Source: Chitinophagales bacterium 33-2
GTDB taxonomy: Bacteria > Bacteroidota > Bacteroidia > Chitinophagales > Chitinophagaceae
Length of the DNA stretch: 64,000 nt
Assembly: GCA_002050435.1 (NCBI GenBank)
Contig: MWYV01000006.1
Span: 1-64,000 of the forward strand
Direction of reading: 5' to 3'
Shown in pieces: positions 14,537 to 15,373 of this stretch; the first letter of the stretch is position 1; every line of letters begins with the position of its first letter. The position numbers were made by a program, and so were the translations under genes. Under the pieces are notes generated by a model. That model ran no database searches and was not told the origin of the DNA. It was given only the letters and a program-made list of their open reading frames with translations.

Positions 14537-14802
14537 TGGATTGGATTTTGATCAAACACATAGCTAACCTTTAAAATGAGTTATGCCATGGACTTACAAT
14601 ATAATAATAAAACGCCCTTACTTTAAATGAATTTACATATTGTCCTGATTAATCAGGGAAATTGCTTAAAGAATTCTTCATTCAATATATGTAGGAAATT
14701 CTTTTTATAACCCTACAAGGGGAACCGTCATTGTAAGCGCAGCTGAATTGCCCCGTCATTGCGAGCGCAGCGAAGCAATCTCCGGGGGACGGTTTAGGCG
14801 GC
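14537..14802. other. Non-coding spacer with REP-like elements
   Basis: No gene seen. The right part (14724-14824) consists of repeat-like DNA: a degenerate and then an intact copy of a cgtcattg(c/t)gagcgcagc element, followed by a gcggcttagcgcctttgcgg phrase. The left part (14537-14720) is AT-rich upstream DNA of the exopolysaccharide operon. Confidence 0.6.
14724..14790. repeat. REP-like palindromic elements, two copies
   Basis: An intact copy (cgtcattgcgagcgcagc followed by gaagcaatc) at about 14754-14780 can fold as attgc/gcaat around a GC-rich centre. A degenerate copy (cgtcattgtaagcgcagctg) lies just left of it. Similar short palindromes are dispersed in many bacterial genomes. Confidence 0.75.
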
Positions 14803-14937
14803 TTAGCGCCTTTGCGGCAAAAAGGTATAACGATTGCGACCAATATTGTGTTCCTTCAATCTATTGATGACATCAAGAGACATTCCCGTATAGCGGGCCC
14901 CGTCTGACCTGCTTTCTAAAACATAGACGTATACCAT
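14803..14937 (-). pseudogene. Truncated GIY-YIG nuclease copy
   Basis: The first 38 codons are identical to the intact GIY-YIG gene at 15002-15268, up to the RNRYT motif. Identity stops abruptly at 14825, where repeat-like DNA begins. The frame then reads FLPQRR and stops at 14803. The catalytic Glu half of the domain is missing, so it cannot be active. It is the truncated second copy of a tandem unit, cut off by the REP-like cluster. Confidence 0.85.
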
Positions 14938-14987
14938 AAAAAAAGCCCCAAAATGTGGGGCGATTATTCGTACCGCGTACGGGATTC
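14825..14987. repeat. 163-bp direct repeat, left copy
   Basis: Base-for-base identical to 15156-15318 (offset 331). It spans the 5' part of a GIY-YIG gene, its upstream terminator and the last 17 bases of tRNA-Glu. Perfect identity implies a recent event. Confidence 0.95.
14938..14961 (-). terminator. Copy of the tRNA-Glu terminator
   Basis: Identical to the hairpin at 15269-15292: stem gcccca/tggggc followed by T7 on the minus strand. Here it follows a tRNA 3' fragment rather than a tRNA gene. Confidence 0.8.
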
Positions 14988-15036
14988 CCTGCCTGACTGC
15001 GTCACGCAGGCAGGGAACCCCTATTACCTCCGTGAA
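14971..15036 (-). pseudogene. tRNA-Glu 3' half, interrupted by a palindrome
   Basis: On the minus strand this matches tRNA-Glu from the first anticodon base (ttcacggagg...) to the 3' end, with one mismatch (c for g at 15021). It is split in the T-loop, between ttc and gaa, by the 27-bp palindrome at 14988-15014. It has no 5' half and cannot make a tRNA. Confidence 0.88.
14988..15014. repeat. 27-bp palindromic insertion in the tRNA fragment T-loop
   Basis: Arms cctgcctg and caggcagg flank an 11-base centre. An overlapping perfect palindrome, tgcgtcacgca, lies at the centre-right. The insertion separates gggattc from gaaccc, which are contiguous in the intact tRNA gene, so its borders are exact. 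It also supplies the stop codon of the GIY-YIG ORF. Confidence 0.88.
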
Positions 15037-15268
15037 GTTTATCCAGCCATTTCCTGCCAGCAGCAGTCTTCAAATATTTTTCATGTTTACGTCCCTCTTC
15101 CCATGAGTGAAAAGCTTCAGAGCAATAGATTATCTCCCAGGGAACATGAGCCTTAGTATAACGATTGCGACCAATATTGTGTTCCTTCAATCTATTGATG
15201 ACATCAAGAGACATTCCCGTATAGCGGGCCCCGTCTGACCTGCTTTCTAAAACATAGACGTATACCAT
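15002..15268 (-). CDS. GIY-YIG family nuclease, tRNA-associated
   Basis: A small 88-residue protein consisting of one GIY-YIG domain of the YhbQ/UPF0213 type. Visible motifs are VYVYVL (GIY position), RYTG (YIG position), Arg26 and His30 in NRLKEH, and the catalytic Glu63 in HEKYLK. All expected catalytic residues are present. The gene begins 34 bases downstream of tRNA-Glu, behind its terminator. Its last ten residues (HGGNRGSLPA) are encoded by a duplicated tRNA fragment and the inserted palindrome, so the native C-terminus ends near residue 78. It may be the nuclease of a selfish tRNA-linked element; target unknown. Confidence 0.85.
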   Translation of the reverse strand: MVYVYVLESRSDGARYTGMSLDVINRLKEHNIGRNRYTKAHVPWEIIYCSEAFHSWEEGRKHEKYLKTAAGRKWLDKLHGGNRGSLPA

Positions 15269-15318
15269 AAAAAAAGCCCCAAAATGTGGGGCGATTATTC
15301 GTACCGCGTACGGGATTC
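15156..15318. repeat. 163-bp direct repeat, right copy
   Basis: Identical to 14825-14987. This copy is continuous with the intact GIY-YIG gene and the intact tRNA-Glu. Confidence 0.95.
15269..15292 (-). terminator. Terminator of tRNA-Glu
   Basis: Minus-strand stem gcccca/tggggc with a five-base loop and a following run of seven T. It lies ten bases beyond the tRNA 3' end and directly ahead of the GIY-YIG start codon, so that gene would be shielded from tRNA transcription. Confidence 0.88.
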
Positions 15319-15373
15319 GAACCCGTATTACCTCCGTGAAAGGGAGGCGTCCTAGCCCTTAGACGAACGCGGC
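15302..15373 (-). tRNA. tRNA-Glu (anticodon TTC)
   Basis: 72 bases, no encoded CCA. The acceptor stem gccgcgt/acgcggt closes with one G-T pair. The anticodon stem cctcc/ggagg encloses loop ctttcac with anticodon ttc, and the T-arm gggttcgaatccc is canonical. A promoter is placed upstream and a terminator downstream. Confidence 0.96.

Follow-up and report, generated by a model that had tools for sequence, protein, structure and literature searches.

The locus described here raises the question whether a tRNA gene that is followed by a small nuclease gene and by a piece of the same tRNA represents an ordinary tandem duplication or a selfish unit for which the tRNA gene serves as home. The window, i.e. 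the whole analyzed stretch of 64,000 nucleotides from Chitinophagales bacterium 33-2, contains according to ARAGORN a single tRNA, a tRNA-Glu(TTC) on the minus strand, and the genome search found only one full-length match to it in the 90%-complete assembly of this genome. On the minus strand the intact tRNA-Glu is followed in this order by a terminator, a GIY-YIG gene of 88 amino acids, a displaced piece of tRNA-Glu, a further terminator and a truncated nuclease:

15301-15373, minus strand: intact tRNA-Glu(TTC) (ARAGORN and genome search)
15269-15300, minus strand: terminator-like hairpin, its T-run abutting the nuclease ATG (sequence)
15156-15318, minus strand: exact 163-nt repeat, right copy (repeat comparison)
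15002-15268, minus strand: GIY-YIG nuclease gene, 88 aa, UPF0213/Slx1-like (ORF, Pfam, alignment and fold)
15015-15036, minus strand: displaced tRNA-Glu piece, nt 34-55, 95% identical (one mismatch)
14988-15014, no strand assigned: 27-nt palindrome CCTGCCTG...CAGGCAGG at the T-loop position GGTTC|GAA
14970-14987, minus strand: displaced tRNA-Glu piece, nt 56-73, 100% identical
14938-14969, minus strand: second copy of the terminator hairpin (sequence and repeat)
14825-14987, minus strand: exact 163-nt repeat, left copy (repeat comparison)
14803-14937, minus strand: truncated nuclease copy, 38 codons identical and then other sequence, without Glu63

The direct 163-nt repeat reported in the initial annotation of this DNA (14825-14987 = 15156-15318, spacing 331) is indeed exact, and it stops at the 27-nt palindrome. 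The same annotation had described a unit made of the 3' half of tRNA-Glu, a terminator and a GIY-YIG gene. Terminator, nuclease gene and tRNA piece are all in place, but the tRNA part is not a plain half, because the displaced piece (nt 34-73) is split at 55/56, inside the T-loop sequence GGTTC|GAA, by the palindrome, which had been missed. As follows from the coordinates, nuclease residues 78-88 are encoded by the displaced piece and the palindrome. The window contains one full unit and then a partial second unit with a nuclease that lacks the catalytic Glu.

The 88-aa ORF matches PF01541 (E 2e-11), and the residues Y5, Y16, G18, R26, H30 and E63 are invariant in an alignment of 20 sequences, including the Arg26, His30 and Glu63 that had already been named as catalytic. 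The predicted structure of residues 1-81 has a mean pLDDT of 95.6. The UPF0213 protein BH0048 (1zg2) was the best match by profile (E 9.2e-19) and the top match with Foldseek, followed by another UPF0213 protein and Slx1 and then by the catalytic domain of I-TevI, the only intron-type relative among the matches, whose profile match is far weaker than that of UPF0213/Slx1 (E 0.0032 versus 9.2e-19). This ranking by sequence and fold places the nuclease with UPF0213/Slx1-like proteins and not with intron-type homing enzymes, and it carries the catalytic Tyr, Arg, His and Glu by which members of this branch of the GIY-YIG superfamily are recognized. The 81 modelled residues form one domain, i.e. 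a nuclease predicted to lack a separate DNA-binding domain. When NCBIfam was searched with the window protein, no family was found. The dN/dS ratios ranged from 0 to 0.35 in those close nuclease pairs where they could be estimated, and between tandem copies silent changes usually exceeded replacements (9 versus 2 at L097), with the copies at L276 as an exception (silent 2 versus replacement 3). Judged by these substitutions, the nuclease is under purifying selection, also between tandem copies. The search for phage or plasmid carriage of the window protein gave two weak Staphylococcus phage matches and no plasmid match; the two phage records (OR849895.1 and OR845007.1) are unannotated, and the matches are possibly host-derived.

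The family is widespread. Searches with the window protein gave matches in 21 of 38 genomes, its own genome included, and with the 20-row alignment the family was detected in 243 of 393 genomes of the order and in 254 of 392 genomes of the phylum. The number of nuclease copies per genome ranged among relatives from 0 to at least 14, with 14 being a lower bound, as at least 14 candidates were scored in such genomes. From the order listing 80 regions were taken, leaving out matches with internal stops in G373, G389 and G393 as well as G238:C82. Before counting, 24 loci were excluded, most of them further copies of places kept as other loci; the exclusions also comprised the long GIY proteins L018 and L032 and the locus L012 (intact tRNA at one end of the G011 array). 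L005, in which the gene is broken, dropped out as well. Of the remaining 141 loci, which come from the order and its near relatives, 100 have the nuclease flanked by a tRNA on one side and by a fragment of that tRNA on the other, as scored by the rule that was also used for the control. A looser fragment rule gives 105 of 141, the extra ones being loci whose displaced copy itself scored as tRNA, and the tree and palindrome counts given below use these 105 loci. Under the strict rule, 16 loci have a tRNA without a piece across the nuclease, six of which (L025, L026, L039, L040, L079, L100) have a displaced copy that was itself called as tRNA, and another 25 lack any tRNA within 900 bases; 15 of these lie at contig edges. 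The phylum search yielded 30 loci, 28 of which were new and outside the order; 25 of these 28 display the tRNA-nuclease-piece pattern, while the remaining three comprise one tRNA without a piece across the nuclease (L268) and two loci at contig edges. In the control, a sense fragment was found near only 1 of 37 nuclease-free tRNA genes from the genus loci. Hence, the alternative named in the initial annotation, a single tRNA-Glu/nuclease locus without tRNA fragments elsewhere, failed when relatives were searched for nucleases beside tRNAs.

The tRNA pieces have the sense orientation in 244 cases and the antisense orientation in two. The tRNAs involved belong to 13 amino acids, the Thr and Ile calls not being counted because they resemble displaced copies. 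In two metagenome-assembled genomes the nuclease follows a tmRNA, L034 (JAUWXV010000082.1) and L035 (LJUD01000172.1), the contig of the latter holding the tmRNA 3' end only; in both, a piece of the tmRNA 3' end comes after the nuclease (L034:1102-1820, L035:1-376) with palindromic inserts at the same place. An Rfam scan of loci without tRNA (20 + 11 loci) recovered an edge-cut tRNA at L105, the tmRNA at L034 and the cut tmRNA end at L035, and gave sub-threshold tRNA-like matches at L074 and L009. Low-scoring Rfam matches at L088, L007 and L151 looked like chance and were discarded.

Two arrangements occur. In type A the tRNA is followed by terminator, nuclease and 3' piece, and in type B the nuclease has the 5' piece before it and the tRNA after it. 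The looser rule assigns 35 loci to type B, of which about seven read as type A with a displaced copy called as tRNA (L025, L026, L079, L084, L100, L113, L141). A terminator-like T-run marks the gene start in type A, with at least seven T in the 14 nt before the ATG in 61 of 89 nuclease genes. Among the nuclease genes directly upstream of a called tRNA, 24 of 33 have their stop codon inside that tRNA, and eight of these stop codons are the TAG at tRNA nt 8.

The units also form tandem arrays. In G009, units of 351 nt follow tRNA-Val, three of them at one contig end and 5.9 copies at the end of another contig; G011 has 430-nt units after tRNA-Pro at contig ends, and G015, a single contig, has 2.3 units of 420 nt after tRNA-Leu. 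Arrays of 5.3 x 450 nt after tRNA-Leu in G634 and of 5.0 x 315 nt after tRNA-Asp in G689 are situated inside single multi-megabase contigs. The units within an array are identical or near-identical to one another, and the location of arrays inside long single contigs disfavours an assembly artefact. The window, G009 and G015 each have a truncated nuclease as the last copy, and in G011 the last unit ends before the nuclease. Since arrays lie at contig ends (L036/L037 in G009, L012/L038 in G011), draft genomes probably hold more copies than were counted. In no genome was one identical element seen at tRNAs of two different kinds. Tandem arrays of tRNA fragments without a nuclease between them, with periods of about 87-111 nt, were noticed at L068:1113-1463, L097:1202-1537, L118:1001-1452 and L122:1059-1561; they adjoin element-bearing tRNAs and may be non-autonomous derivatives.

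A comparison of strains for empty tRNA-Glu sites had also been suggested, and the window site was located across 18 genomes of the genus with the neighbouring MBL-fold gene as anchor. The orthologous tRNA-Glu site carries a nuclease in two genomes (G000, G017) and none in 12; the G017 nuclease is interrupted by a stop and incomplete at the end of its contig. No tRNA was found at the anchor site in G001 and G012, and in G003 and G006 the anchor was represented by a more distant copy only. In the anchor-protein tree the two occupied genomes do not fall together, although the forks there are open, and G009, G011 and G016 form a well-supported group. Within this group, G009 carries an array at the tRNA-Val site, where G011 retains a decayed nuclease start; at the tRNA-Pro site G011 carries an array, and in G009 this site is empty between two conserved flanks. 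The elements are thus present at some and absent from other orthologous sites, as is expected for homing genes. At the window's orthologous site in G004 (L181:3836-4040), two intact identical tRNA-Glu genes are found in tandem without a nuclease.

The displaced tRNA of the window does start at nt 34, as the initial annotation had stated, but the proposal that this position marks an integration boundary was rejected, because displaced pieces of other elements begin at many tRNA positions. The sites that recur are the insertion points of palindromes, GGTTC|GA in the T-loop and ATA|GA in the D-arm. Exact inserts without loss of tRNA letters occur at the T-loop site in eight elements (tRNA-Glu, -Arg, -Leu and -Phe) and at the D-arm site in tRNA-Arg elements; the ends of such inserts are mostly of the CCTGCC...GGCAGG kind. 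In other displaced pieces an arm is partly replaced by TCCCG...CGGGA or TCCGCC...GGCGGA hairpins. Compared with shuffles, 25 of 51 inserts have a stem of five or more (8.0 expected), and 18 of 51 lie beyond the 5% level. The two palindrome classes account for 75 of 105 displaced regions versus 93 of 3056 windows of matched length taken from other parts of these loci, counts that serve as a description and not as an independent test because the patterns were written after the data had been seen, and 30 of 105 displaced regions show neither pattern. The insert sits inside the T-loop motif of the displaced piece in 15 elements including that of the window, and the T-loop motif is still present in 27 of 70 type A displaced regions.

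The pattern CCTGCCTGN{0,14}CAGGCAGG has one site in the 3.0 Mb genome of the window, namely the displaced tRNA-Glu piece, and the genome search found it absent from the genus mates G002, G013 and G017. It is present in 9 of 15 genomes searched, and the reversed control pattern gave 0 in all 15. Class-1 palindromes away from nucleases reach 16 copies in G314 and 18 in G041. Since both classes are found elsewhere in some genomes, the palindromes are not exclusive to the tRNA-nuclease elements. At L290 (G041:C2:1199800-1219700), a cluster of CCTGCCTG...CAGGCAGG palindromes is located inside a longer dispersed repeat (GTCATTCCGAGC...GAGG), and a short GTCATTGCGAGC...GAAGCAATC repeat near the truncated nuclease copy of the window (14727-14790) is apparently of the same kind. 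At L233:1480-1671 (G030:C5), a 5' piece of tRNA-Gly is split by a class-1 palindrome just upstream of an intact tRNA-Gly; no nuclease gene was found in this locus, which is probably a remnant. Near a contig start, L293:181-256 (G016:C38) shows a tRNA-Val-like sequence with the anticodon arm replaced by a CCCGCGTACACGCGGG hairpin, which represents a displaced copy standing alone.

On a tree of 105 nucleases, the amino acid of the associated tRNA changes 31 times, compared with a mean of 72.6 after shuffling (minimum 61 of 1000) and with 60.2 when shuffled within genera (minimum 51). The nearest nuclease relative outside the genus is associated with the same amino acid in 75 of 105 cases (12.3 expected), and the nearest one outside the family in 47 of 105 (12.5 expected). 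Hence, a nuclease lineage keeps to one target gene across hosts, which is a further feature of homing genes. Palindrome class changes five times over 73 leaves versus 18.5 times when shuffled and 12.6 times when shuffled within amino acid, values as low as the observed one being reached in 0 of 1000 shuffles in either scheme; this test left out 30 rows without class and two with both. These results are based on a short tree (80 columns) with 54 of 102 inner branches drawn open. The host family label also follows the nuclease tree better than chance (35 changes versus 47.9 shuffled), so that much of the inheritance may be vertical.

Among known systems, small palindromes are tied to one nuclease-type gene family in the case of REP palindromes and RAYT genes, the RAYTs being Y1 transposases. 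The unit described here does not belong to them, because it lacks a Y1 transposase; its only gene is of the GIY-YIG type, and it comes with tRNA pieces. Assignment to tRNA-integrating islands or ICEs, which are characterized by an integrase and att repeats, was likewise rejected: in line with the earlier statement that an integrase is missing, the window unit encodes the nuclease only, and array units of 315-450 nt are too short to contain an integrase gene. Another comparison is offered by SegB, a larger protein that probably comes from a different GIY-YIG branch. SegB of phages T4/T6 is a free-standing GIY-YIG homing endonuclease that in phage T6 cuts inside tRNA genes, with the motif RAWTSGAAC being preferred but not strictly needed, and through recombination it drives tandem amplification of a unit of tRNA-Tyr and truncated segB, which does not occur with a catalytic mutant (PMC13096335). 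Read on the opposite strand, this motif is GTTCSAWTY, the T-loop of tRNAs. As far as the consulted part of that source describes it, SegB resembles our element in the GIY-YIG gene beside tRNA genes, in a preferred motif that matches the T-loop and in an amplified unit with a C-terminally truncated nuclease, and it differs in that its unit holds a full tRNA, whereas the extra copy here is incomplete and usually has a palindrome. Moreover, SegB is phage-borne and its cutting has been demonstrated, whereas our element is chromosomal and its cutting is what we infer.

Fungal mitochondrial mobile ORFs replace the 3' end of genes, e.g. of atp6 in Allomyces and of atp6, atp9, cox2 and nad3 in Glomus (PMC3630166). 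As in our element, a conserved gene harbours an inserted endonuclease ORF and is completed by a replacement end, and its native end is displaced; unlike here, these are protein genes in organelles with foreign, diverged ends, and palindromes and arrays are unmentioned in the passages of PMC3630166 considered. The UPF0213/COG2827 proteins (BH0048, 1zg2; E. coli YhbQ, B. subtilis YazA) and Slx1 share the same single GIY-YIG domain with the window protein; the sections of PMC7017083 available to us do not mention a tRNA association of UPF0213/COG2827, and they describe Slx1 as a structure-selective repair nuclease with the partner protein Slx4. In the literature searched (titles and abstract openings), no description of chromosomal tRNA-nuclease elements was found. 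Elements in which a free-standing nuclease makes its living by cutting a conserved gene are already known as a kind, and according to the part of PMC3630166 considered, mobile nuclease ORFs are known to replace the end of a gene in fungal mitochondria. What is new is the chromosomal, phylum-wide and tRNA-bound form, together with displaced tRNA pieces that are mostly broken by palindromes, a very small size and an enzyme of the UPF0213/Slx1-like type.

The suggestion of a selfish unit tied to tRNA genes is well supported by the flanking fragments, the empty orthologous sites and the near-identical arrays, and the sequence data point to a very small, apparently undescribed selfish element. We consider it probable that it represents a minimal chromosomal homing-type element with a tRNA gene as home, in which one intact tRNA is kept and the displaced piece is usually broken. 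Its architecture, phylum-wide occurrence, arrays and empty sites are established together with purifying selection on the nuclease and the agreement of nuclease phylogeny with tRNA identity and palindrome class, and from these we infer tRNA-gene cutting, copying by repair, destruction of the target by the palindrome and array growth. The window nuclease would cut tRNA-Glu at the T-loop, and nucleases of other clades would cut other arms. The break would be repaired by copying the element-bearing tRNA locus, whereby the nuclease gene would be added and one tRNA remain intact; the palindrome would destroy the target in the displaced copy and make this copy immune, and repeated rounds or unequal exchange could produce the arrays. 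A cut at the T-loop is proposed for the window nuclease because the SegB motif is the reverse complement of the T-loop and inserts interrupt the T-loop motif in the 15 elements mentioned above. As this motif is intact in the 27 type A regions, the target would have to differ between clades, and the nucleases of these regions might use another target within the tRNA. The displaced copy is interrupted in many elements and the intact tRNA keeps the supposed target, hence self-cutting must be rare or blocked; a similar question on the cutting of the donor is asked by the SegB authors (PMC13096335).

Other explanations have to be weighed against this homing-type element. The window on its own does look like an ordinary local tandem duplication of a tRNA and its neighbouring gene without any role of the nuclease, yet the survey contradicts this explanation, as the structure recurs at many kinds of tRNA versus a single case among the 37 nuclease-free tRNAs, and the order of the parts, with the truncated copy at the far end and the displaced piece directly after the full nuclease gene, also speaks against it, which makes it highly improbable. 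A device useful for the host, with the nuclease and the tRNA pieces protecting tRNA genes from integrating elements or adjusting tRNA dosage, would agree with the purifying selection, also between tandem copies, and with the fact that tRNA genes are common integration sites. We regard it as improbable given the variation in copy number from 0 to at least 14 between relatives, the mostly empty orthologous sites in the genus and the decayed remnant in G011; furthermore, the displaced pieces are incomplete tRNAs and should therefore add no tRNA dose.

Somewhat more weight, although we still think it unlikely, is given to a structure-driven amplification, in which cruciforms of tRNA genes and palindromes would be attacked by the Slx1-like nuclease as a branched-DNA enzyme, and arrays and displaced pieces would be repair by-products and not the result of sequence-specific homing. 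It would explain why the inserts are palindromic, with stems of five or more in about three times as many as expected, and why one family is found at many different tRNAs and tmRNA; the closer relation to UPF0213 and Slx1 than to I-TevI by sequence and fold and the single predicted domain, with no room in the 81 modelled residues for separate DNA binding, fit as well. Against it stands the finding that the clades of the nuclease agree with tRNA identity and palindrome class, an agreement that suggests either some recognition of sequence or strict co-inheritance. A bolder extension of the homing-type element, which we put forward tentatively and hold to be rather less than an even bet, regards the units as the phylum-wide smallest autonomous bacterial mobile elements known to us (about 315-450 nt): a one-domain nuclease would home into tRNA and tmRNA genes and keep the gene whole with its own or a copied end, the palindrome at the cut site would mark the displaced copy as immune, and palindromic repeats elsewhere in the chromosome would originate from the same activity.

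If the homing-type element is confirmed, a single nuclease of 80-90 residues and a tRNA piece would suffice for a selfish element to maintain itself and multiply in bacterial chromosomes, with genes as home that the cell can hardly lose. It would become testable how so small a nuclease finds its target, how a host survives a nuclease that targets the only copy of one of its tRNA genes, and whether palindromic repeats are created by such nucleases. Finally, it would account for some of the short, identical, tRNA-linked arrays at contig ends of draft genomes.
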